Both the position numbers and the translations under genes were made by a program. A stretch of DNA of 63,022 bases, taken from positions 1-63,022 of the IMG/VR virus record IMGVR_UViG_3300027857_000019; one strand, written 5' to 3'. The stretch comes from a virus. Positions within the stretch are counted from its first letter, which is position 1. Each line of letters begins with the position of its first letter. Below the pieces are notes generated by a model, which saw only the letters and a program-made list of their open reading frames with translations, was not told the DNA's origin and made no database searches. Below, one piece after another: positions 6,202 through 63,022 of this stretch.

Positions 6202-6522
6202 ATGCTATGGAACTGGCTGCTGCTGCCGTGGCGGGTATTGCAGGTCATCGCGCAGGTGCATATGGACTGTCGGCGGGCACAGCGGAGGGTACAGATTCGG
6301 CGTATGGTTGCGGGAGGCAGCGGGGTGGACGATAAGGTTTGGGCGGGTCCGATGGTCGCACCGGCAGGCTTGGCGGAACTGATGCATCCGGCGGAATGCC
6401 CGTGTACTGATTGCGTGATTCAGCGCCGGATAGAGCGACAGAGTCGGCAGGAACCTTACGAACAATTGGTGACGCTCGAGGACGAGGTCGCGCTGGCGGA
6501 GATTTTTGCCAAAGGATTATGA
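6202..6522 (+). CDS. Hypothetical protein with N-terminal hydrophobic segment, 106 aa
   Basis: The ATG at 6202 opens with a hydrophobic stretch (MLWNWLLLPWRVLQVIA), then a basic segment, a Cys pair (CPCTDC) and an acidic helical end. The ribosome site is weak (AAAG). The stop overlaps the next ATG at 6519. Function unknown. Confidence 0.55.
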   Translation: MLWNWLLLPWRVLQVIAQVHMDCRRAQRRVQIRRMVAGGSGVDDKVWAGPMVAPAGLAELMHPAECPCTDCVIQRRIERQSRQEPYEQLVTLEDEVALAEIFAKGL

Positions 6523-6731
6523 GTGTGGTCGCCATGTCGGAAACTGCGGCCGAGCGGGCGCAAAGGATCGCCAATCGCCAAGTGTGGCTGGACGGCTACG
6601 CGCACGGTTGCATCGCGTCCGATAAGGTGAAGCAGGAGCGAATAGTCGGCTGGGTGGCGCTATACTTCGCGATCGGCGCGATTGTCAACAGTGCAGTGAT
6701 AGCCGTAATTTACAGCGGGTTCTTTGAGTGA
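6519..6731 (+). CDS. Small membrane protein, 70 aa
   Basis: The ATG at 6519 overlaps the upstream stop. The first 40 residues are polar (SETAAERAQRIANRQVW), followed by one membrane helix (VGWVALYFAIGAIVNSAVIA) near the C-terminus. An N-in, C-out tail-anchored topology is likely. Function unknown. Confidence 0.6.
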   Translation: MSVVAMSETAAERAQRIANRQVWLDGYAHGCIASDKVKQERIVGWVALYFAIGAIVNSAVIAVIYSGFFE

Positions 6732-6886
6732 CCGAAGCCGAGTACGACGCCGCCTATCTCGCCCGCTGGGGATGCACGGTGGAGGAAGCGATGAGCACCA
6801 AGGCTGACAGTGCAGACAGCCACGTGGATGGCTCAGGAGCCGAGAGCGGCGGGTCATCCGGCGTGAAGACCACCGACCCGCTGTAG
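6728..6886 (+). CDS. Small hypothetical protein antisense to the PEP-CTERM gene, 52 aa
   Basis: A GTG at 6728 overlaps the upstream stop (GTGA). The start reads VTEAEYDAAYLARWGCTVEEA, which looks like a genuine phage protein, but most of the rest (Ser/Gly/Asp-rich) lies opposite the 3' end of the PEP-CTERM gene. It may be an older gene whose 3' part was replaced when the minus-strand cassette arrived, or a chance frame. Confidence 0.35.
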   Translation: MTEAEYDAAYLARWGCTVEEAMSTKADSADSHVDGSGAESGGSSGVKTTDPL

Positions 6887-7407
6887 CCACCGTCAATTCC
6901 GCCCAAGTCAATCTCCACGAAGGAATGAATCGTGCGGTCGGCCATGTACGGGAATAGCGGGCCGCTCAGGTAAGCGGCATACATGTACGAGGAATCGGCC
7001 CAGGCGTCGAAGGTGACATGTTGCGCCACGCCCGACATGAAAGGTAGCCGCTCCATCGCGTACTCTGGCGTAGATCCGTAGGGCTCGTACCCTGGCGTGG
7101 TCAGATACCACGGCGCGGTGATCGTCGCCCAAGAATCGAGATACTCGCCGCAGGGGCAGCCCTGGAACGATGTCGCCATGGTCGTGACGTACAGGTCGAG
7201 ATAGCCGAACCCGCCACTGCTGGATTGCACGGTAATATCTCCGCTCCAGCTCGAGTGCTGCGTTATGCGCACCTGAGCCATTGGTGCGTTAGCAGGGTCG
7301 GCGGGAATTGCTAGGTCGGCATCGGCGAACATGCCGAGCGGTGACTGGCCAGTAACGATCAGGCTGGCTTGGAGGCAGAACGGGAAAAGCAGGAGGGTGA
7401 AACGCAT
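6754..7407 (-). CDS. Secreted PEP-CTERM domain protein, 217 aa
   Basis: The start at ATG 7407 (MRFTLLLFPFCLQASLIV) is chosen because AGAGG precedes it and because it begins a Sec signal peptide. The C-terminus has the full PEP-CTERM layout: PEPSTW at residues 191-196, a membrane helix (LSALSALVLIA) and a short basic tail (HPQRAR). In bacteria such proteins are exported, cut and anchored to the cell surface or exopolysaccharide by exosortase. The central region is beta-rich and may be an adhesin-like domain. It lies on the strand opposite its neighbours with its own promoter, which marks it as a moron-type cassette acquired from a host genome. No exosortase gene is in the phage, so processing would rely on the host. 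Confidence 0.85.
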   Translation of the reverse strand: MRFTLLLFPFCLQASLIVTGQSPLGMFADADLAIPADPANAPMAQVRITQHSSWSGDITVQSSSGGFGYLDLYVTTMATSFQGCPCGEYLDSWATITAPWYLTTPGYEPYGSTPEYAMERLPFMSGVAQHVTFDAWADSSYMYAAYLSGPLFPYMADRTIHSFVEIDLGGIDGGYSGSVVFTPDDPPLSAPEPSTWLSALSALVLIASSTVHPQRAR

Positions 7408-7426
7408 CGCGGGAACCTCTGATGGT

Positions 7427-7455
7427 ATTCTAAAGGCAATGAGGATACCATGCAA
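7427..7455 (-). promoter_or_regulatory. Promoter of the PEP-CTERM cassette
   Basis: On the minus strand TTGCAT (7455-7450) and TAGAAT (7432-7427) are separated by 17 bases; the -10 matches the consensus at five of six positions. The predicted start is near 7420, 13 bases before the PEP-CTERM ATG. Confidence 0.5.
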
Positions 7456-7617
7456 GAACCAAAGACCATTTTCGCGGAAGGAGAGTACTGGACCGTGAAG
7501 CCGCACCGCCGTGGACTTGTGGCGATCTGCGAAAAGCTTGACCTGAAGGTGACAGCCGCGGATGAGGGCACGCTACGGAAGGCTATTAGCGAGACCATGG
7601 AATTGCTCTGTGTTTAG
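7450..7617 (+). CDS. Small hypothetical protein, 55 aa
   Basis: The ATG at 7450 follows GAGG by five bases. The protein is charged and helical (MQEPKTIFAEGEYWTVKPHRRG... LRKAISETMELL), without membrane or zinc motifs. It starts in the 42-bp divergent space shared with the PEP-CTERM gene. Function unknown. Confidence 0.5.
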   Translation: MQEPKTIFAEGEYWTVKPHRRGLVAICEKLDLKVTAADEGTLRKAISETMELLCV

Positions 7618-7635
7618 TGATATGCTCAGGGGCAT

Positions 7636-7857
7636 ATGAATTCGACTCTGGATACCGCACTTCAGAACGCCGCCGCCGCTGAAGCAACTTATCAAGCCAG
7701 TTTAGGTAACGTAGCAACCATCCAAACGGCCATCGACACGGCCACGACGCCGCTCGAACCGGCGAAGGCCAAACTCGCAACAGACGCGACAGCCTTTAAC
7801 GCCGCGATGGACACGCTCAGTCAGGCCGCGCTGGCAGCAAAGGTGCCGACCGCATGA
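7636..7857 (+). CDS. Ala/Thr-rich small helical protein, 73 aa
   Basis: The ATG at 7636 follows AGGGG. The protein is dominated by Ala, Thr and Asp (LQNAAAAEATYQASLGNVAT) and is predicted to be a long amphipathic helix or coiled coil. Small proteins of this composition occur near phage packaging genes, but no role is assigned. The stop overlaps the next ATG. Confidence 0.6.
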   Translation: MNSTLDTALQNAAAAEATYQASLGNVATIQTAIDTATTPLEPAKAKLATDATAFNAAMDTLSQAALAAKVPTA

Positions 7858-8015
7858 CACTCCAAGTCTGGTTCTGGCTGTTCATGGCGCTGTGGCTGGT
7901 CTTCGGCATCTGGCGCGGCCGTACGGACGGCTGGCCTTTCTGGGGCGGCCACTTCTTACTGTTCGTGCTCTTTGCGATTCTCGGGTGGCAAGTTTTCGGC
8001 TCGCCCGTGAAATGA
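7854..8015 (+). CDS. Small two-pass membrane protein, 53 aa
   Basis: The ATG at 7854 and the TGA at 8013 each form ATGA overlaps with their neighbours. The protein has two hydrophobic helices (VWFWLFMALWLVFGIW and FLLFVLFAILGWQVFG) joined by a short loop RGRTDGW, the layout of many small holin-like or membrane-adaptor proteins. Function unknown. Confidence 0.6.
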   Translation: MTLQVWFWLFMALWLVFGIWRGRTDGWPFWGGHFLLFVLFAILGWQVFGSPVK

Positions 8016-8851
8016 TTCCGCGCAGTTACTACGTCGCTAACTCGGCGATGATTCCCTGCTCAGCATCCGACCTTGACTCTGACCCGCGCGGCATTATCTG
8101 GATATTCGAGGAGCCCGATCCACGAGGGGTCTACGTGATGGGAGTAGATCCGAGCGGCGGCATTCCACTATGGAATCGTTACGCCAGGACCGATTCTGAC
8201 CACCGCACCGATAACGGCGCCATACAGATTTTAAAGGTTGGCCGCGGCGAGGAGATCCCAGATAAGCAAGTGTGCGAGTTCGCCGCCCCGATCGACCCGG
8301 AAGATTTGGGCGAGGTTGCTAACATTGTCGGGCGGGTGTACGGCGGCTCAAGCGAAGAGGGTCAGGCTAAGGCCATCATTGAGATTCAACCCGGACCTGG
8401 CTTGCTCACTCAACGCAAGCTCATAAGCTACGGCTACACGAATCTCTTCGTCTGGTCCTACTTGGACGGCGCCACGCTCACGCGCACCAACACGATGGGT
8501 TGGACATCGACGCCCCGCACACAGCGCGACCTGTGGCTCCGTTCAAGTCGGCATATGATTCACGGGCTTTGTGACCTGTCGAGCCCTTGGCTGATCGAGG
8601 AAATGGCCGACGCCGAAATGAACATGGCGAAGATGCGCGCGCAGTCCGTCTATGGCAAGCATGACGATAGGCTGATGGCGTTGATGCTCGCCATTTGGTG
8701 CGCGCGTGAGTGGTCGCTCGACGTGGAGACGGTGCCGAGCGACTTAAGGACTGATGCAAAGCCGGTTGACCCACAGGCGTGCGACATGACATACTCCCAG
8801 ATGATGGACCAGTGGGAAGAACAGTTCTGCGCGTTAGGAGAGGAACGATGA
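8012..8851 (+). CDS. terL (nuclease part): Terminase large subunit, nuclease domain only, 279 aa
   Basis: This is the RNase H-like nuclease half of a large terminase, which cuts concatemeric DNA during packaging. The start at ATG 8012 overlaps the upstream stop. The three expected acidic motifs are present: VYVMGVDPSGG (first Asp), AIIEIQPGPG (Glu) and KHDDRLMALMLAIW (terminal Asp pair). The first conserved segment, IIWIFEEPDPRGVYV, is exactly the linker that normally follows the ATPase domain. No Walker motifs are present. The missing ATPase half is encoded at 34950-36185 on the opposite strand, and that protein stops where this one begins in the family alignment. Confidence 0.85.
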   Translation: MIPRSYYVANSAMIPCSASDLDSDPRGIIWIFEEPDPRGVYVMGVDPSGGIPLWNRYARTDSDHRTDNGAIQILKVGRGEEIPDKQVCEFAAPIDPEDLGEVANIVGRVYGGSSEEGQAKAIIEIQPGPGLLTQRKLISYGYTNLFVWSYLDGATLTRTNTMGWTSTPRTQRDLWLRSSRHMIHGLCDLSSPWLIEEMADAEMNMAKMRAQSVYGKHDDRLMALMLAIWCAREWSLDVETVPSDLRTDAKPVDPQACDMTYSQMMDQWEEQFCALGEER

Positions 8852-20272: not shown

Positions 20273-20478
20273 ACTTCGAACCAAAAGCTGATTGCGTTTG
20301 CGGACACGCTTACGAGAAGCATGGCGGGGATACCGAATGCCCCGGTTACACGGGATGCAGGGATCTCGATTGTAGTTGCCATGTGTTCGAATTGAAAGAA
20401 GAATTAGAGCCGAAGGCTAGCGACCGTTTCTGGGCGCATGTCGAAACGATGCTATTAAACCGAGAGAGGAATCAGTGA
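20269..20478 (+). CDS. Small cysteine-rich protein, 69 aa
   Basis: The ATG at 20269 overlaps the upstream stop. The first 40 residues hold a zinc-binding-like cluster (CVCGHAYEKHGGDTECPGYT, then CRDLDCSCHVF); the rest is an acidic helix. It lies inside the sugar-modification module, and any link to it is positional only. Confidence 0.6.
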   Translation: MNFEPKADCVCGHAYEKHGGDTECPGYTGCRDLDCSCHVFELKEELEPKASDRFWAHVETMLLNRERNQ

Positions 20479-21176
20479 GCAACTATAAGCCCGACTATTG
20501 GCAGACAGTCCCAGGCTGGTTTGATTGGATGGATCTCTACGATGAGGTCGCCCTTACCACTCCGCCAGGGTCGCTTGTAGTGGAGGTCGGTGTTGCCTTC
20601 GGGCGATCGCTGCTTTACCTTGCACAGCGCATCAAGGAGACCGGCAAGGACATCCAGGTCGTCGCGGTGGACCGCTGGCAACCATACCCAGAGCACCACT
20701 TTATCTACCAGGAGGATGCGCCGATAGTCGAATCGGAGCGGGTTGCCTACGAGTGCGCCAAGCGGCATGGTGGCGTGTTCCCGGCGTTCTGCTACCACCT
20801 GTACGAATCGGGATTGGCCGATTGGGTGAATGTTGTACGGGCGGATAGCGTGAAAGCCGCTCGTATGTTTGAAAATTGGGCACAGAACATATATGATGGA
20901 CACCCTACCAAACAACCGCATTTCGTATTTATCGACGCCGAACACGAAGCGCAAGCAGTAGATTTAGACTTACACGCATGGTGGGATGAGGTAAAGCCTG
21001 AATGGGCGGCCGGTCACGATTACAATCGCGGCTCCGACATTCATTTCCCCGGCGTGTGGAAGACGGTAGACGCCAAATTTGGTCAGGAAAATGTGGAGTG
21101 GCGAGGACAAACCTGCTGGGTTGTTCGCCGTTCGCACTTGGAGAGAACTTCAGAAGTGAATTCAATGGTTGTATGA
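20475..21176 (+). CDS. SAM-dependent methyltransferase, 233 aa
   Basis: The GTG at 20475 overlaps the upstream stop. Motif I of a class I methyltransferase is clear (VVEVGVAFGRSLLYLAQ), followed by VVAVDRWQP and the later segment FVFIDAEHEAQAVDLDLHAWW, as in family 24-like methyltransferases that act on sugars or small molecules. In this setting it may methylate the glycan made by the neighbouring enzymes. Confidence 0.75.
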   Translation: MSNYKPDYWQTVPGWFDWMDLYDEVALTTPPGSLVVEVGVAFGRSLLYLAQRIKETGKDIQVVAVDRWQPYPEHHFIYQEDAPIVESERVAYECAKRHGGVFPAFCYHLYESGLADWVNVVRADSVKAARMFENWAQNIYDGHPTKQPHFVFIDAEHEAQAVDLDLHAWWDEVKPEWAAGHDYNRGSDIHFPGVWKTVDAKFGQENVEWRGQTCWVVRRSHLERTSEVNSMVV

Positions 21177-21301
21177 AAACTCGACGACACCATAACAACG
21201 ACGGGCGGAAACAGATTCAAAGTGGAGGAACGACTAAGGCGCTTAAGAGAATAGCTAAAAAGTTACACCTTCGATTTGTCGGGGCAAAGTTCAAAACATG
21301 A
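21173..21301 (+). CDS. Small basic peptide, 42 aa
   Basis: ATG 21173 and TGA 21299 both form ATGA overlaps with neighbours, the same spacing as other genes of the module. The peptide is very basic (MKTRRHHNNDGRKQIQSGG, then KALKRIAKKLHLRF). Function unknown. Confidence 0.5.
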   Translation: MKTRRHHNNDGRKQIQSGGTTKALKRIAKKLHLRFVGAKFKT

Positions 21302-22224
21302 AGGCCTGCATCTTGGGACATAGCGGCATGGTCGGCTCGGCGCTGATGCGCAAGTTGGGTAATCTGCGTCACGCAGATGTGCTTATTGATTGCGGCGATT
21401 TACGCGACCAGCGCCACACACGCGAGCTTGTAGCGGGGTTGCTGAATCTTGGCGCAACTCACATATTCTTGTGTGCGGCGAAGGTGGGCGGCATCCAAGC
21501 CAACCTCAGCTATCCGGCCGAGTTCATCGAAGACAACCTTCGCATCGAGTTGAACGTGATCGAAATGGCGCGGAGATGCGACGCGCGGCTGGTCTACTTC
21601 GGCTCCTCCTGCATCTACCCACGAGACGCCCAGCAGCCAATCCCGGAAGAGGCGCTGATGACCGGACCACTCGAGCCGAGCAATGAGCCCTATGCGATCG
21701 CGAAAATCGCGGGAATCAAAATGCTTCAGGCGTATGAAAAGCAGTACGGCATGAAGTCTTTGATTCTGATGCCGTGCAACCTCTACGGGCCGGGGGATAA
21801 CTTCGACTTGGAGACGGGCCACGTGCTGCCCTCACTCATTAGGCGATTTGTGGAGGCGAAGGAGTCCGGCGCCGAGAGTGTGACGCTGTGGGGCACAGGG
21901 GTAGCGCGGCGCGAGTTCCTGCATGTGGACGATCTGGCGGAAGCGGCAGTGTACTTGGCCGAGTCCGGCGTAACGGGCATGGTGAATGTGGGCAAGGGAA
22001 CCGATCAGACTATCGGGGCGCTGGCTAACATGATCCGCTTGGTGGTGGGCTACACGGGATTGATCGGCTACGATCCTAACAAGCCGGATGGCACGCCACG
22101 CAAACTGCTCGACATCTCCAGGCTGCGCCAGTGCATGACGTGGACGCCTCGCACGGTGCGCGAGGGCATCGAGGAGACCTTGGCGTGGTATCTTCAATCA
22201 CTGAAACAACCCTGCATGGTGTAA
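21298..22224 (+). CDS. fcl: GDP-L-fucose synthase-like epimerase/reductase, 308 aa
   Basis: The N-terminus GHSGMVGSALMRKL is the NADP-binding motif of GDP-4-keto-6-deoxymannose epimerase/reductase. The catalytic Ser (FGSSCIYP) and the Tyr-Lys pair (PYAIAKIAG) are present, as is HVDDLAEA in the C-terminal domain. Length matches the family. The enzyme would make GDP-L-fucose or a related deoxysugar in the cytoplasm for the two transferases encoded just upstream. The GDP-mannose dehydratase needed before it is not in the genome and must come from the host. Confidence 0.85.
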   Translation: MKACILGHSGMVGSALMRKLGNLRHADVLIDCGDLRDQRHTRELVAGLLNLGATHIFLCAAKVGGIQANLSYPAEFIEDNLRIELNVIEMARRCDARLVYFGSSCIYPRDAQQPIPEEALMTGPLEPSNEPYAIAKIAGIKMLQAYEKQYGMKSLILMPCNLYGPGDNFDLETGHVLPSLIRRFVEAKESGAESVTLWGTGVARREFLHVDDLAEAAVYLAESGVTGMVNVGKGTDQTIGALANMIRLVVGYTGLIGYDPNKPDGTPRKLLDISRLRQCMTWTPRTVREGIEETLAWYLQSLKQPCMV

Positions 22225-34949: not shown

Positions 34950-36185
34950 CTACCTCATGTGCTGAAGTTCACCTGATGATGGGGCCTTCGTGGATGTGGC
35001 GATATCGTAGGGAATTCCCTCATGCGCCCGATTACGGCATCGCTCCAAGAACTCTGTCGGGAATGCGCTACGCCCCGAATGCTGGAAACTCTCCTGAGGA
35101 GTGGCGCTCCAATTCGAGAGGAAGAAGTTGAGATTCCCCGCGCGCCGGTATTCCTCGCGTGTCGTTTCCCACCAGTAGAGGTTATCCTTGGGCAGGAAAT
35201 ACCGTTGCCAGCGCGTGTACAGGTGCGAGGTCTCCGAGACTTTCTTCGCGTGCAGGATGGACTGCTCGGCTGGTTCCCAATCGGTCGGCGGATGGCGGCG
35301 GTATTTCTTCGGCTCGGCGTACCAGGGAATAAAGATGTAGGTCCAGCGCGGATGTTTTCCCTTTCTGCAATCTTCGGTGAACTCGTGCCAGAAGTTGCCG
35401 CGGCCGGCCGGCACCGCCTCCATGCCGAACAGCGTGTTGATAGACTGTGGAATCGCAGGCATCAGGTCGAACTGAATCACGCCGGGATACTGCCATTGCG
35501 AGACCTCCGTCAAGTGGCCGATCTCGAATTGCCGCGATATTCCCATTGCGCCCTTTTGCGAGGATTCCTGATAGATGAGGCGGGAATTGTTTGCGAAGGC
35601 TAGATGCTCATCCTTCACGTCGTAGACGATGGCTGGCTTGAGAAATGATGGCAACTCCTGATACATGAACTTGTCGCGGTCGTAGACTTCGCGGATAAGA
35701 TCAGAATTGAGGCTGGCAGCCATACCGCGCGTGTGGTCGTTCAGCACGAGCCGATGGACCGACAGGCAGCGCCAGATCATCGTGAAGCCTATCTGCCGCG
35801 ATTTATTGCAGGCTACTAGGATGCCATCGACGGGCTCTCCACGAGAGCGTTGCTCATGGCATTCTTCCTCTTTCTTGCCGATCTTTTCCATGAGCATCTC
35901 TTGGGGCTCCCAGTAGTTGAGAGGGCCAGCGCCGCCGCCGACCGTTGCATCAATGTTGATGGTCAGATAGCGGTTGGCGCAGTACTGGAAATCCAGCTTG
36001 CAGAGGATTTGCTCGTTGTGAATGAAATCGTGATCTTCGCTCGTAATGGCTTTCTTCTTGGCTAGAAGCGCGTCGATCTCTTTGGCGCGTTCAATACTAA
36101 CGGCTGGCTTGTGGCGCTTTAGCTTGAGCTTGAGGGCCTTCTGGACCTTGTGAGTGTTCTGGTCTACGATGAGCGGGGAGTACAC
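34950..36185 (-). CDS. terL (ATPase part): Terminase large subunit, ATPase domain only, 411 aa
   Basis: The GTG at 36185 follows GAGGAG. A terminase-type Walker A is present (NKSRQIGFTMIWR, about residues 127-139) and the Walker B region ends in a catalytic Glu (IGHLTEVSQW). Downstream, the segment WSATPQESFQHSGRSAFP is the usual end of the ATPase domain; the protein then stops after about 40 residues without any nuclease motif. It would be the packaging motor. The nuclease half is a separate gene at 8012-8851 on the other strand. The gene follows the putative small terminase gene, as is usual. Confidence 0.85.
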   Translation of the reverse strand: MYSPLIVDQNTHKVQKALKLKLKRHKPAVSIERAKEIDALLAKKKAITSEDHDFIHNEQILCKLDFQYCANRYLTINIDATVGGGAGPLNYWEPQEMLMEKIGKKEEECHEQRSRGEPVDGILVACNKSRQIGFTMIWRCLSVHRLVLNDHTRGMAASLNSDLIREVYDRDKFMYQELPSFLKPAIVYDVKDEHLAFANNSRLIYQESSQKGAMGISRQFEIGHLTEVSQWQYPGVIQFDLMPAIPQSINTLFGMEAVPAGRGNFWHEFTEDCRKGKHPRWTYIFIPWYAEPKKYRRHPPTDWEPAEQSILHAKKVSETSHLYTRWQRYFLPKDNLYWWETTREEYRRAGNLNFFLSNWSATPQESFQHSGRSAFPTEFLERCRNRAHEGIPYDIATSTKAPSSGELQHMR

Positions 36186-37860: not shown

Positions 37861-39720
37861 ATGAGACTCCTAACTGGCACGGCCCTTTGCCTCTTCATGG
37901 CTATGCAGGGGGCCGTCGCTCAAGTCCCAGGCATCCCCATGCAAGGCTCGGATATGGTCTCCAATGGTCGAGCCATCATCAATAACGCCTTTCTTTTCCT
38001 GGGCAATGGCAAAGTCGCACGTTGGACAGGAGTAGGAGCACCAGGGTCAATCCCGCTGAGCGTACAGGGAGATCTCTACTACGACACGTCGGGCCTGCAC
38101 ACCTACGCCTGTTACTCAACAGTCTGCTCAACGGCTCCGAATTGGGCTCGCATCGACGGGCTCGTAACAGCGCCAGGTTCAAACGGGCAGTTGGTTTACA
38201 ATCTTTCGACGGCTTTCGCGGCGTTTACTCCAGGCGGAGATGTGACGTTTACCGCGCCAAATTTCACGGTAACGGGCACAGGCGGGGTCGCATTCGCCCC
38301 TTCCGCGACCACGAACGCTTTGAACGCTTCCAATATTTCCAGCGGCACGCTTCCCGCAGCACGGCTCCCGGCGACGGTTTTCCAGACTAATCAGAGCAAC
38401 ACGGTCACGACCGGCACGCAAGACTTTAGCGCGAGTCTTCACTTCATCCCGAAAACGGCCGCCAATGTTGGCGCACTGCCAGCTACAGGCTGTGCCGCCG
38501 GCGAAATAGCAATGGTCCTATCGGCTACTCTGGGACAGCAAATCTACGAGAATTCGGGTACCGGGGCCTGTGTATGGACGCAACAAGGAGGAGGCGGCGG
38601 TGGCGGCGCTTCGTGGGCATCCCAATTAAACGACTGGCTCATTACGCGCACATCGGCTACCGTTCTGACTATCTGTCAAGGCGCTTCGAGCACGACTCCC
38701 TGCGCCTTTCGCATTGGAACGCGAGTCTGGACATTTACCGCCGCCTCCACGGTCACTCTAACGACCGGCACAGGCTTGGCCTACATCGCGGGCGATGCTT
38801 CAGGAGTGATTGGAGTCTATGTCAATACGGCAAATTTCACGAGCGTCGCGTGCTCGGGTTGCACCGTGTTCAATGCGACTCAAGCCCCTACTGATGGAGT
38901 TGTGTTCGCCTCCTGGAATGCGACGGCGAATACATGGGACTCGACAGGAACTGATCTGCGGGCAGTCTTCAGTAATCGCGGCAAATTCGTGGCTTCAGCA
39001 ACGATCACTCCAGTAATCACTTCCGATTCGATCTCATTCAATGCCTTAGGCGGCGGTCCCACGCCCTCAGGCTTCTACCTGACTTCTGGCGGGACCTCGT
39101 ATTGTGGGCCGACGTTCCAGGTATGCACTCCTGCGAGTGGGCTAACGATCCTGACAACGGCGGGAAGTTCGACCGTCAACGCAAGCGGCGGTACCCAGGT
39201 GATTCAAGCGAAAGCAGCGGCAGGCGACAACATCATAGCAGTAGGGCAGGCCATTGCTGGCGGCAATACTTCCCTAACCGTGGCCGTCAACTGCTCGGCA
39301 TTTCCTTCAGCCAATAGCGTGTATCCGCAATGTGGCGTTGGGTTCAGGGAGTCTGCCACTGGGAAACTGGTCTTTATCGCGCAGCCTTTTTACAACCACC
39401 TTCAAGGCGGTTCGAGCGGCCTGACGCTCTATTCATTCACCAATCAAACGACCTTCGCTTCCACTCTCAGTTCAAACACCTTCACCTACATCGGCATGGG
39501 CACGATCTGGTGGGCGAAGTTGACGTGCTCGGTTGCCGGTTGCGCTACTGGCAATATCACAATTCAGACAAGCCCTGACGGGGTGAACTGGTCGCAGGGA
39601 TTCACTGAGGCAGTGGGTGGCCACTTCACGACAGCGCCGAATCAGTGGTACGCCTATGGTTCCAGTTCCTCTACGGACAACGATCTGTACGTTGACATCA
39701 TGAGCTTCCTGGTCCAATGA
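37861..39720 (+). CDS. Exported fibre-like protein with Sec signal peptide, 619 aa
   Basis: Residues 1-20 (MRLLTGTALCLFMAMQGAVA) form a clear Sec signal peptide, with cleavage likely before Gln21. The mature protein is Gly/Thr/Ser/Asn-rich and beta-type, with the fibre-like segment LNASNISSGTLPAARLP, a Gly-8 linker (GGGGGGGA), and paired Cys residues throughout (CYSTVC, CSGC, CGPTFQVC, CSVAGC) that could form disulfides after export. It looks like a phage fibre made for the periplasm or cell surface. First of four such genes. Confidence 0.7.
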   Translation: MRLLTGTALCLFMAMQGAVAQVPGIPMQGSDMVSNGRAIINNAFLFLGNGKVARWTGVGAPGSIPLSVQGDLYYDTSGLHTYACYSTVCSTAPNWARIDGLVTAPGSNGQLVYNLSTAFAAFTPGGDVTFTAPNFTVTGTGGVAFAPSATTNALNASNISSGTLPAARLPATVFQTNQSNTVTTGTQDFSASLHFIPKTAANVGALPATGCAAGEIAMVLSATLGQQIYENSGTGACVWTQQGGGGGGGASWASQLNDWLITRTSATVLTICQGASSTTPCAFRIGTRVWTFTAASTVTLTTGTGLAYIAGDASGVIGVYVNTANFTSVACSGCTVFNATQAPTDGVVFASWNATANTWDSTGTDLRAVFSNRGKFVASATITPVITSDSISFNALGGGPTPSGFYLTSGGTSYCGPTFQVCTPASGLTILTTAGSSTVNASGGTQVIQAKAAAGDNIIAVGQAIAGGNTSLTVAVNCSAFPSANSVYPQCGVGFRESATGKLVFIAQPFYNHLQGGSSGLTLYSFTNQTTFASTLSSNTFTYIGMGTIWWAKLTCSVAGCATGNITIQTSPDGVNWSQGFTEAVGGHFTTAPNQWYAYGSSSSTDNDLYVDIMSFLVQ

Positions 39721-43823: not shown

Positions 43824-45865
43824 AGGAGATCCTAATGCGATTGGTTTTGCTTTTCCTCTGCGCCGCTTCTCTATGGGCGCAGTACATTCCTCCAGGCGGC
43901 GGCACAGGCAACGGCATCACAAACGTTACATCCCTGCCGGCGACTTGCACGGCCAGCGGCTCTCCCAACGTGGTGTTCCTAACCACTGGAACGGTGGGTC
44001 CCTACGCTTGCCTCGCACCAAACACATGGACCTTCATCGGTACAGGTGGCAACACGCCGGGGGTCGCGGGCTACACGCTCTGCGCGAGTGGCTGCAATAC
44101 GACGATACCGGCGAGTGGGACAACCATCGCGGCGGCGACGCATGGACAGGGGCTTTACCCGTTCATCGGCGAATGTCTGGACGGTTCGGGGATTGCGATG
44201 GCCTGCAACTCCACGGTTAACACGACAACCGGGGCGCTGACGTTGAACTATTCCAGCGCTCCGTCTCAGGTGACTATCGTGGGCGCGACGGGCGGCTTCG
44301 CGAATCCCTTAACAACGCTCGGTGATCTGATGTATGAGAACGCCACGCCTGCCCCAACGCGGTTGGCGGGGAACACAACCAGCGCTCTGAACGTCCTGAC
44401 TCAGACCGGCACAGGCTCAGTAAGCGCCGCTCCCGCCTGGACGACTCTAGCGACAGCCGGGATTGCTCCGTCTTCCACGGCCGTCACAGCGTCAAGCCCT
44501 GGGGTAGGAATTGCCCATTTCGCCGGATCGACTCAGGCAGTTACCAGTTCTACCATCGTAGCCGCCGACATCGCCGCCAATACGATTACGTCGGGACAAG
44601 TGAACAACTCGATTGCGCTCACGGGCACCGACATTAACACGTCCAACCAAGTCACAGCTACTCATCTTGCCGCTCCACTCCCGCTCGCGCAGGGTGGAAC
44701 GAATTGCGCGACGCCGTATGCCATCAATCCGCAGACTACGACCTATCAGGTTGTCGCAGTGGATTTCACTTGTTCCAAGACGATCTCTGTTGCCTCTGGA
44801 ACGTTCACCATCACACTAGTCGCTTCCGGTTCGCAGCCTGTGGCTGGTTCTTATATTCAGGTTGTCAACTACGGTTCTGGCGTAGTCACCATCGCTCGGA
44901 GTGGACAGAATATAAACGGTGGCACCAGCAGTTTGACCCTTGAAGCGGCCAGCGCTACGATTCCTTCGGACTGCTTTATTCAATCCGACGGTACCAATTA
45001 TTTCGCATCTTGCGGGGCCGGAAATGCCCTCACGACCCAAGGAGATCTCAGCGTAGCCGGAGTAAATGGTATACCGTCTAGGCTAGCCGTTGGAGGGGCT
45101 ACAACCCTACTTCATGGCGGGGCTTCGACGCCCGCATATAGCGCACTTGCCTTAGCCGATACGCCATTGACCACCCGCGGCGATCTGCTGGTCGCGAATT
45201 CCACTCCAGCGCTCGGTAGACTCGCAATCGGCGCGGCGAATACGGTCCTGCACGGAAGCGCGACCGACCCTACGTATAGCGCCGTGGTGGGCGGAGACTT
45301 CGGTTCCTCGATCGCCGCGCGCGCGGGGCTGAATAATGCGACGGCCGCTGCGGCAGCGCCCACGTTCTCGACCACCGCCGACTTCCTCGCCTACCAGGTC
45401 GCCGAGATTCCGCAGGTTGTCTTCATGAATGCGGATTTCACGACATCGGGCGTCGGTACGGCACTCGAAGCGATTACCGGCCTCACTTGGACACTTCCCG
45501 GCTCAACGGCGCTGAACGTCTCTTTCTCTTGCCATCTCATCTATCACCAGAATAGCGCCGCCGCTGCCGTAGCCTTTGGCACTCAGAACGCGACTACAGC
45601 GCCCACAAATTACGCCGCTAAGGGTGTGATTTACACTAGCGCGAGCGTCTTTGCGGCGGCGAATGTCGTCGCCAACACAGCGACAACGGCCGTCTCAGTG
45701 GTGAGCGGCACACCATCCGCGATCACGACCAACTGGAATGCTGATCTCGATGGCCTCATTGAGCAGCCGTCCGGCACGGCAAGCGTGTTCACAATTCGCG
45801 TCTCGACTGCCACGGCCGCAGATACCGTGACGGTTAAGAGAGGAAGTTTTTGCCGCGTGAATTAA
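43820..45865 (+). CDS. Exported fibre-like protein with Sec signal peptide, 681 aa
   Basis: The signal peptide MKEILMRLVLLFLCAASLWA ends before Gln. The middle contains three copies of a repeat used in phage fibres (LTTLGDLMYENATPAPTRLA, LTTQGDLSVAGVNGIPSRLA, LTTRGDLLVANSTPALGRLA) with the linking segment LLHGGASTPAYSA. A C-terminal beta domain follows, with two Cys residues (SFSCHLIY, GSFCRVN). ATG overlaps the previous stop. Repeat content shows it is a fibre; the signal peptide is atypical for one. Confidence 0.75.
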   Translation: MKEILMRLVLLFLCAASLWAQYIPPGGGTGNGITNVTSLPATCTASGSPNVVFLTTGTVGPYACLAPNTWTFIGTGGNTPGVAGYTLCASGCNTTIPASGTTIAAATHGQGLYPFIGECLDGSGIAMACNSTVNTTTGALTLNYSSAPSQVTIVGATGGFANPLTTLGDLMYENATPAPTRLAGNTTSALNVLTQTGTGSVSAAPAWTTLATAGIAPSSTAVTASSPGVGIAHFAGSTQAVTSSTIVAADIAANTITSGQVNNSIALTGTDINTSNQVTATHLAAPLPLAQGGTNCATPYAINPQTTTYQVVAVDFTCSKTISVASGTFTITLVASGSQPVAGSYIQVVNYGSGVVTIARSGQNINGGTSSLTLEAASATIPSDCFIQSDGTNYFASCGAGNALTTQGDLSVAGVNGIPSRLAVGGATTLLHGGASTPAYSALALADTPLTTRGDLLVANSTPALGRLAIGAANTVLHGSATDPTYSAVVGGDFGSSIAARAGLNNATAAAAAPTFSTTADFLAYQVAEIPQVVFMNADFTTSGVGTALEAITGLTWTLPGSTALNVSFSCHLIYHQNSAAAAVAFGTQNATTAPTNYAAKGVIYTSASVFAAANVVANTATTAVSVVSGTPSAITTNWNADLDGLIEQPSGTASVFTIRVSTATAADTVTVKRGSFCRVN

Positions 45866-45874
45866 CGAGCCCAT

Positions 45875-48841
45875 ATGAGAACAATCGTCATCTCAATCCT
45901 TCTATTTTCCGCGCTCTTTGCGCAGACCAAAGATTCTGACCAGCGGTTGCTGAACTCCAAAACCTTCGCCAACCTCGGCACGCCCGCCAACGGAGCTATC
46001 GTCTACTGCTCGGACTGCACTGCGGCTAATCCAACGGCCAGCGGCGGCACTGGGGCCGTAGTGCGCCGTGAGAACGGAGCATGGAACGGCGGCGGAGGGA
46101 GCGGCGGCGTGTCGTCTTTTACGGGTGACGGAACGCTAATTACCAATTCAGCTTCGACCGGAGCCGTCACAGCCACACTCGGCAAAACCTTTCAAGGCAA
46201 CGGGACCAAGCTACAATTGTCCACCGGCACGACTACGACTGGCGACTGCGTAAAGTTCGACGCGAACGGCAATACTATAGACTCTGGAGGAGCTTGCGGC
46301 GGCGGCGGATCTCCGGGAGGCTCAACCACGCAGTTTCAGTTTAACGATGCCAGTTCGTTTAATGGTACGGCTGGCTTCACCTGGGATAAAAACAATCCCG
46401 GCCTATCCCTATCCCTTATCAATCCCCTGCAAGGCAACGACGCCAACGACCGCCGAGGCGCGCGGTTCGCATTCACGACCGACTCCAGCACATCCAATCC
46501 GAACTTCTCGGATCAGAACGGGCTAGAAATTGTACAGACAATTCTCAACGGTCAGGCGACAAACGGTGGCGCGACGACAGCTAAGACTACCTTCCTAACC
46601 CTGAACCTCTCGCAGACCGGCTACGGCTCTGGCCAGAGAATCCCGTTTGGTATCGGCCAAATCTCATACGGCATGAGCGACAGCGGACTGATGAGTATTA
46701 CTAACCAATATGCCGGTGGTCCGGTCAATGGCGATGAGTGCGACGGGTGCTTTTCGACCGTCTCTTATTCGAAGCAGCAACCGTCTCTGGCGCTGACAAC
46801 TATCAGTAGTGTCGTGACTCCATCCACATGCAATACGACCAGCACGCAATCCATCACAGCAAACATAGCGGTTCAGACCGTCACTGTTGCAAGTTCGACA
46901 GGCTGCAACATCGGGAATTACGTCATCATCGGCCAGGAGGTTGCATCGGGCTCTCCCAATCTTGAAGCCGTCAAGATCACAGCGAGTGCGGCCGGAAGCA
47001 TTTCCGGCATCTTTCGCTATACCCATTCCAACGGAGTGACCGTCACGCCAGCTACGGTCCTGGCGGTTGCCGATGTCAGCAAGTTCGGACAAGACCGGGT
47101 ATTGGTCGATATGTCGGCTACGAGCTACACGACCGGCACTGTGGCGTCAATCTCCGGTGGTGGATTCACCGGCTCAGGGACTACCTGGGCGAACAATATG
47201 GTCGGCGGAACTGCAACCAATATCGGCTGCGTCTCGCTGACTAACGATAACTTCACGGTCACACCATTTGACAACGGCGCGAACATTCTGCGGTCTTGGT
47301 ACCAGATCACGAGTGTAACTTCGGCCACGAGCATTGGAATTTTCACCTACTCCGTTGCTGGTGATATGGCCTATCGTGGTAACGGGGTTGGATCGGGTGC
47401 GTATACGATTCGCCCTTGTGCGAGGGTGCTTCTGATAGAAAGCTCCGCAGGTTCATTCACCGGAAACGTGATTCTGGAGAACAACAGTTTCACTTGGACG
47501 GCGGCGGATAATATCGAAGTGGCGATAAGTCCGTACCCTGACGTGACCGGATTTCAGTACAACATTGCGGCTTGGACCCCTGGTGGAACGTATCGCCAGT
47601 TTATGAACGTCACCAACTCCGGGGCGCGTAAATTTTCAGGTGGGTTCAATTTGGTAAGTGCCCTTGCGGTTGGCGGCGGTGCAGACACAGTGGCTTGGGA
47701 TACAGGCTATGCTGTAGATAGTGCCAACACGGGCTTCTCAATCGGGGAAACTCGAACAGGGAACGCTTTCCTAGCAACCGCGACACCCACAAACTCAACA
47801 ACAAAGAAGCCTTGCTATAACTTTGTGGGAGCTGCCCTGGCTGGCGGAGTGTGCGCTGATTACGATACCGCCCTTGTCGGTCTCACGGGACAAAGCACCG
47901 ACAATCTTAGCACCGGGGGATTTGCAAAAGTTACGGTAGATTATGTAAACAACCCAGACGGTAAAGGAATTATTACCGCCGTTGGACATTTCACAATTGA
48001 TGGGTCGCGGGCTGGATCAAACGGCCCGCTAGTTACTATTAAATCTGCCAGCAACGACACCTTACAATTTGCCATGAATGCCGGGAGTACTACAGACACA
48101 GGGAGAGGCGGAACCATTGAAGAAGTTGTCAATTATCACCATGCCTCAGACCCATTTGTCAGTTATGGCTCGATGATTGAAACGGGCGTTCAGATGAATG
48201 ATGGAGCAAACAACACAGCGTTTGGGTCGTTTGGGGCCACGAAAATAGCGGCAAGCTCCTCACCCGCCACGAACGCAAGTTCTAATCTGATTTGGTACAA
48301 CGCCTCGGTTTGGACCGGATCAGTGGCGCGGAACACTTGGATGTTTAACAGGGCGTACCCAGGAGTCTCCGGTAACAACGCTCATGTGGAATGGCAAGTA
48401 GCCGGGTTAGATCCTGCTCAGACATGGAATGCTACTTTCCCGTCTGTTTTTGCTGGCGTGAATGACCAAGGAAAATTCAGGTTTGGAAATGAGAACCTTC
48501 CCCAGGCATCCTCGGTAATGGCTACGCTCGATCCAACCGGGTTGACTGCCTCTCGTCTCTTCACTATGCCAGACATGGCGGGAACCTTCGCCTTAGACTT
48601 GACAGGAACAACAGGAACCATCAGCGGTGCGGTAACTGCCGGAGTATGTGACTCAGGGACGGCTACGGTGACAGGAGCGACCACTGGAATGGGTGTGGTG
48701 GCAACACCTATAACTTATCCTGGAGACGGAACAGTGTGGTACGGTTACGTAAGTGGCTCCAACACTGTCACCGTCAAAGTTTGCGGTTTGACGGTTGTGA
48801 CCCCAAGCGCAAGTGCTTACAACGTGAGGGTGATTAAATGA
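45875..48841 (+). CDS. Exported fibre-like protein with Sec signal peptide, 988 aa
   Basis: The signal peptide MRTIVISILLFSALFA ends before Gln17. Two Gly-rich linkers (GGGGSGGVSSF and CGGGGSPGGST) separate N-terminal domains. The TTQFQFNDASSFNGTAGFTW segment is typical of phage fibre shafts. The C-terminal third (from about 47640) is visibly more AT-rich than the rest and may have been exchanged. The last domain ends TVKVCGLTVVTPSASAYNVR. Likely a surface or tail adhesin. Confidence 0.7.
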   Translation: MRTIVISILLFSALFAQTKDSDQRLLNSKTFANLGTPANGAIVYCSDCTAANPTASGGTGAVVRRENGAWNGGGGSGGVSSFTGDGTLITNSASTGAVTATLGKTFQGNGTKLQLSTGTTTTGDCVKFDANGNTIDSGGACGGGGSPGGSTTQFQFNDASSFNGTAGFTWDKNNPGLSLSLINPLQGNDANDRRGARFAFTTDSSTSNPNFSDQNGLEIVQTILNGQATNGGATTAKTTFLTLNLSQTGYGSGQRIPFGIGQISYGMSDSGLMSITNQYAGGPVNGDECDGCFSTVSYSKQQPSLALTTISSVVTPSTCNTTSTQSITANIAVQTVTVASSTGCNIGNYVIIGQEVASGSPNLEAVKITASAAGSISGIFRYTHSNGVTVTPATVLAVADVSKFGQDRVLVDMSATSYTTGTVASISGGGFTGSGTTWANNMVGGTATNIGCVSLTNDNFTVTPFDNGANILRSWYQITSVTSATSIGIFTYSVAGDMAYRGNGVGSGAYTIRPCARVLLIESSAGSFTGNVILENNSFTWTAADNIEVAISPYPDVTGFQYNIAAWTPGGTYRQFMNVTNSGARKFSGGFNLVSALAVGGGADTVAWDTGYAVDSANTGFSIGETRTGNAFLATATPTNSTTKKPCYNFVGAALAGGVCADYDTALVGLTGQSTDNLSTGGFAKVTVDYVNNPDGKGIITAVGHFTIDGSRAGSNGPLVTIKSASNDTLQFAMNAGSTTDTGRGGTIEEVVNYHHASDPFVSYGSMIETGVQMNDGANNTAFGSFGATKIAASSSPATNASSNLIWYNASVWTGSVARNTWMFNRAYPGVSGNNAHVEWQVAGLDPAQTWNATFPSVFAGVNDQGKFRFGNENLPQASSVMATLDPTGLTASRLFTMPDMAGTFALDLTGTTGTISGAVTAGVCDSGTATVTGATTGMGVVATPITYPGDGTVWYGYVSGSNTVTVKVCGLTVVTPSASAYNVRVIK

Positions 48842-62888: not shown

Positions 62889-63022
62889 TCATGATCTTCG
62901 TTTAAACGCCCAACCCCAACGATCTGGACGATGAAAGTGTTGCTCATCATTCAGATGCGCTCGAGCAGTTTGGAGCACCGAAATTAGGTCATCTAGCCAG
63001 AAGCTAGAAAAGGTATTACCAA
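62889..63022 (-). CDS. 3' part of the gene that crosses the circular join
   Basis: This is the repeated end of the 83-aa gene described at 1-245, ending with TGA at 62891-62889. Residues here correspond to the C-terminal two-fifths (LDDLISVLQTARAHLNDEQH, then RWGWAFKRRS). Confidence 0.65.
   Translation of the reverse strand, partial: GNTFSSFWLDDLISVLQTARAHLNDEQHFHRPDRWGWAFKRRS
62896..63022. repeat. Terminal direct repeat, right copy (circular overlap)
   Basis: Exact copy of bases 1-127; see the left copy. The unique genome is therefore 62,895 bp. Confidence 0.9.

Follow-up and report, generated by a model that had tools for sequence, protein, structure and literature searches.

Little is understood of the PEP-CTERM/exosortase system, with which environmental bacteria sort proteins to their surface. 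Phage morons, in turn, include the genes of lysogenic conversion and superinfection exclusion. PEP-CTERM proteins are defined by a near-invariant PEP motif close to the C-terminus, a hydrophobic stretch of ~14 residues and a strongly basic end of five residues, together with an N-terminal signal (Haft et al. 2006, PMC1569441). The podophages Tunturi_1 and Tunturi_2 infect the Acidobacteriota genus Tunturiibacter (PMC11924767). Here we analysed a stretch of viral DNA of 63,022 nucleotides, referred to in full as the window, which encodes a predicted exported protein of 217 aa, P0001, with a PEP-CTERM-like C-terminal tail. The reading that we favour, at a probability of about 0.55, is that P0001 serves a soil phage, with a probable host in the Acidobacteriota, as an accessory protein that is directed to the surface and sorted by the exosortase of the host.

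P0001 and its PEP-CTERM-like tail

The gene for P0001 (6754..7407, minus strand) is supported by its coding score, a tail rule and a sub-threshold match to PF07589. It starts with the ATG at 7407, which is preceded by the Shine-Dalgarno-like sequence AGAGG, and stops with the TAG at 6754-6756. Its orientation is opposite to that of its plus-strand neighbours on both sides, which are an upstream small gene of 70 aa at the end of one flank (6519..6731) and a divergent small gene of 55 aa (7450..7617), both located by codon scoring. The first conserved gene beside this variable slot encodes the nuclease half of the large terminase (8015..8851, plus strand). Codon scoring, trained on the long genes of the same phage and compared over six frames, gave P0001 an in-frame log-odds of +22.4 versus -31 to -115 in the five other frames. 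P0001 is a coding gene with the phage's own codon usage, and the 217-aa minus-strand ORF against the neighbouring flow, as put forward in the preliminary description, is confirmed by the ORF positions and by this score. An AlphaFold model of P0001 computed without an alignment was uninformative (mean pLDDT 36).

The C-terminal sequence of P0001 is APEPSTWLSALSALVLIASSTVHPQRAR. The PEP-CTERM-like tail, PEPSTW-LSALSALVLIASSTV-HPQRAR (6757..6837, minus strand), has its PEP motif ~27 residues before the C-terminus of the 217-residue protein. The hydrophobic stretch that follows, LSALSALVLIASSTV, has a mean hydropathy of 2.05 over 13 residues, and the basic end, HPQRAR, is short and weak, with two Arg and one His only. 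At the other end of the protein, the signal-peptide-like N-terminus MRFTLLLFPFCLQA (7366..7407, minus strand) passes a simple signal-peptide rule with an uncertain cleavage site. Positions 2-18 of PF07589 matched the tail at 6787-6840 with 17 bits in a DNA search and 14.4 bits in a protein search, both below the gathering cut-off of 20.7 bits, which is a scoring threshold and not a biological feature. An NCBIfam profile search of P0001 gave no match. The PF07589 score alone is not decisive, since a similar score (16.3 bits) arises antisense to the integrase of a related phage, G007, which was rejected as a PEP-CTERM carrier for this reason.

We applied a three-part rule to all six-frame ORFs of at least 60 residues. 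It asks for PEP, an uncharged hydrophobic stretch of 13 residues and a net basic end, all at most 45 residues from the stop. P0001 was the only match among the 530 ORFs of the window. The rule matched one of 6186 ORFs in related phages (774 kb) and none of the 34,148 ORFs in 60 dinucleotide-shuffled windows. The tail architecture of P0001 exceeds chance, and on these controls we rejected chance alone as its origin. Taken together with the coding signal and the N-terminus, which looks exported, this favours a divergent PEP-CTERM protein. Because the Pfam threshold was not reached and the basic end is short, P0001 is better described as a probable divergent PEP-CTERM protein than as a firm assignment. 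The complete PEP-CTERM tail proposed earlier is thus upheld in its PEP motif and hydrophobic stretch and by the rule controls, but its basic end is weak; PF07589 matches in the right place but below its cut-off, and NCBIfam is empty.

The weak basic end and the low profile score would also suit a plain membrane-anchored periplasmic protein, in which the tail is a transmembrane anchor only, no exosortase takes part, and the site of action is the inner membrane, with a function in, for example, exclusion of DNA entry or lysis timing. For such a topology an N-terminal signal and a C-terminal helix alone suffice. However, an exact PEPSTW, correctly spaced before the helix, would be unnecessary for an anchor, and the rule finds nothing in shuffled sequence. 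We consider this explanation unlikely beside the preferred reading of P0001 as an exosortase substrate.

The sequence TTGCAT-N17-TAGAAT (7427..7455, minus strand) had been proposed as the gene's own promoter. The letters are present, but they match the consensus at 3/6 and 5/6 bases (8/12 in all), and a promoter scan limited to the sigma-70 consensus returned 0 sites for P0001, with 0.6 expected by chance, so that this proposal is not supported. Apart from the promoter, the preliminary observation is sound, and its interpretation is a reasonable hypothesis. A terminator scan for P0001 likewise returned 0 terminator-like sites. The 42-bp gap between the divergent genes (7407/7450) also holds the dyad ATGGTATTCT-N10-AGGATACCAT (7422..7451, no strand assigned), with 9/10 positions paired. 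There are 47 comparable dyads in 63 kb, and ~3% would be expected in a 42-bp gap by chance. The dyad is a better regulatory candidate than the proposed promoter, but it is still a weak candidate for an operator.

Distribution of P0001 and of phage-borne PEP-CTERM genes

No homologue of the body of P0001 was found in IMG/VR, phages, plasmids, the PDB or the relatives of the window phage. The gene itself was detected in none of 16 IMG/VR relatives, some of which are fragments, and is absent from Tunturi_1, where PF07589 has no match. There was also no credible PEP-CTERM protein of any other kind in these 16 relatives or in Tunturi_1. All the small genes from 6325 to 8015 are without counterparts in the relatives, so the locus of P0001, next to the gene for the terminase nuclease, is a variable slot.

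A survey of other viral contigs was made by scanning IMG/VR for DNA encoding PEPSTWA. Two scans gave 16 and at least 120 stretches, with 80 listed from the second. A proper tail was present at 82 of the 100 PEPSTWA sites read among the matches listed, so that IMG/VR contains at least 82 canonical tails. A scan with PEPSTW followed by Leu or Phe gave few true tails. PF07589 scored above its cut-off in all 50 survey records tested, and a single PHROG model found a terminase in 17 of them. Some survey records may be host DNA, such as G066, where there are five PEP-CTERM genes and the terminase model had no match; other records are clearly phage. On contigs L117 and L138 the PEP-CTERM gene directly follows the same helicase-like gene, with a tail module in the opposite orientation on its other side, and in L095 it is downstream of a large DNA-polymerase-like gene (all neighbours named by eye). 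The PEP-CTERM gene is located less than 1 kb from an integrase, and faces it, twice in G060 and once in G032; it lies within the integrase region in L297, a contig that is probably a temperate phage. Many of the survey contigs appear to come from soil, judging by the sample sources shared in contig names and by phage relatives.

Among the proteins from other viral records, 48 related PEP-CTERM proteins form one large group. For pairs of related survey proteins at 60-98% identity the median dN/dS was 0.16 and all values were below 0.5, indicating that these families evolve under purifying selection. An earlier median of 0.78 was set aside, as misaligned families had been mixed in. The families tested had no match in PHROGs or in the isolate-phage collection, and the literature containing both 'PEP-CTERM' and 'phage' does not describe phage-encoded PEP-CTERM proteins in its titles and abstract openings. 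The survey of phage genomes suggested in the preliminary description thus reveals that PEP-CTERM genes recur in uncultured viruses, with at least 82 tails and a terminase in 17/50 records. We regard this recurrence as the more interesting result, and P0001 as a modest, divergent example.

An exosortase search of 67 viral records, comprising the window and 66 others, detected none. Sorting of P0001 would therefore need the exosortase of the host, and the dependence on a host enzyme foreseen earlier holds insofar as 67/67 records tested show no exosortase. The gene had also been called a moron cassette. It is indeed phage-encoded, against the flow and absent in relatives, and a moron-like role is supported by the wider class, since PEP-CTERM genes recur in other phages at module borders and near integrases, under purifying selection; the cassette's promoter and terminator, on the other hand, were not found. 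As the PF00589 integrase was not found in the window, a moron that is expressed from the lysogen is a hypothetical reading of this gene.

An isolated gene against the flow, found in the window phage only, could also be a passenger, that is, a PEP-CTERM gene acquired from a host and as yet unselected in the phage. However, its codon usage is the phage's own, its frame is intact and the class is under purifying selection in other phages, all of which makes a mere passenger rather improbable. Returning to P0001 as an exosortase-sorted phage protein, we see about even odds that phages piggy-back on exosortases as a general strategy. Many soil phages, whether temperate or not, would then carry conserved PEP-CTERM genes while having no exosortase, and the sorting machine of the host would deliver their proteins to the cell surface or the exopolysaccharide matrix. 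P0001 would be a divergent example from Acidobacteriota.

The window phage and its probable host

The window has a perfect 127-bp direct repeat (1-127 = 62896-63022) and contains 62,895 unique bases. With this terminal repeat, the window is a complete phage genome. PHROGs recognise its portal, major head protein and RecT, and the 16 IMG/VR relatives were found via the head protein. The closest isolates are the podoviruses Tunturi_1 and Tunturi_2 (PP887698, PP885685), and the terminase, portal, MCP and several tail-region proteins of the window are homologous to those of Tunturi_1. The host of the window phage is likely to belong to the Acidobacteriota. Neither the portal protein nor a 14-sequence MCP alignment matched anything when bacterial genomes were searched for a host or prophage. 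As to closer relatives, RecT yielded distant matches only, and the terminase nuclease half yielded two loci only.

The large terminase of the window is split into an ATPase half (34950-36185, minus strand) and the nuclease half (8015-8851, plus strand), ~26 kb apart. In Tunturi_1 the terminase is one ORF (1-2172), and in most IMG/VR relatives the halves are near each other on one strand. Glycosyltransferase-like and LAGLIDADG-like genes, named by eye from sequence, lie between the terminase halves in G011, G014 and G016. The window also has a methyltransferase (Methyltransf_24) and a sugar epimerase gene at 20475-22224, possibly for glycan modification. Starts resembling Sec signal peptides were seen on large tail-region proteins of the window (37861-39720, 43835-45865 and 45875-48841) and of Tunturi_1 (L059, 10371-23028). 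By the simple signal-peptide rule, 3/19 large ORFs were positive in the window, 5/15 in Tunturi_1 and 24/192 in the relatives; the comparison set of other viral loci gave 12/434. It would be unusual for tail or receptor-binding proteins to be exported.

As such N-termini occur on several of the large proteins in the tail region, in the window as in Tunturi_1, P0001 might be virion-related, belonging to a set of proteins that phages of this group export by Sec and that end up on the particle or where it is released. However, P0001 lies well away from the tail genes, on the opposite strand and in a variable slot, and it has an anchor tail that the exported-looking tail-region proteins do not have; a virion-related role is very improbable. 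A spurious ORF or a chance tail, to which the sub-threshold profile score and the comparable chance match in G007 would point, is hardly credible against the strong in-frame coding signal, the AGAGG before the ATG and the three-part rule controls.

Possible route to the host surface and comparison with known systems

In the reading of P0001 as a surface-directed substrate of a host exosortase, the infected cell would synthesise the protein, with expression perhaps controlled by a dyad operator in the divergent gap. Following the scheme of Haft et al. (2006, PMC1569441), Sec would export the protein by way of the N-terminal signal peptide, and the C-terminal helix would retain it in the inner membrane; the host exosortase would recognise and cut the PEP motif, and the protein would be passed to the outer surface or the exopolysaccharide matrix. 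There, P0001 may alter the host envelope. Our guesses at its surface effect are superinfection exclusion, a change in the matrix and aggregation. PEP-CTERM proteins are reportedly needed for floc formation in Zoogloea, in work cited in PMC12642866, and on that report a matrix effect would be no less likely than the blocking of receptors.

If phages regularly provide its substrates, the PEP-CTERM/exosortase system becomes a phage-host interface. Phages could then reshape the matrix or the receptors of the host via its own enzyme. The substrates that they encode would also offer small tools for probing the function of PEP-CTERM proteins.

The window phage differs from Tunturi_1/2 (PP887698, PP885685; PMC11924767) in that the main homologues share only ~22-30% identity across most of their length, and in that Tunturi_1 has TerL as one ORF and no PF07589 match. 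The phages are alike in their size of ~63 kb, in their homologous MCP, portal, terminase and tail proteins, and in their exported-looking tail-region proteins. Unlike phage morons, P0001 has no detected promoter or terminator, sits in a genome without a detected integrase and would rely on a host exosortase instead of acting alone. Like them, it stands alone against the direction of its neighbours, occupies a variable slot and is absent from relatives. In contrast to the substrates of the PEP-CTERM/exosortase (EpsH) system (PF07589, PF09721; PMC1569441), P0001 is encoded by a phage that lacks a detectable exosortase, scores below the profile cut-off and has a short basic end. It shares with them the order of PEP, helix and basic end, a predicted N-terminal signal and a body without known homologues.
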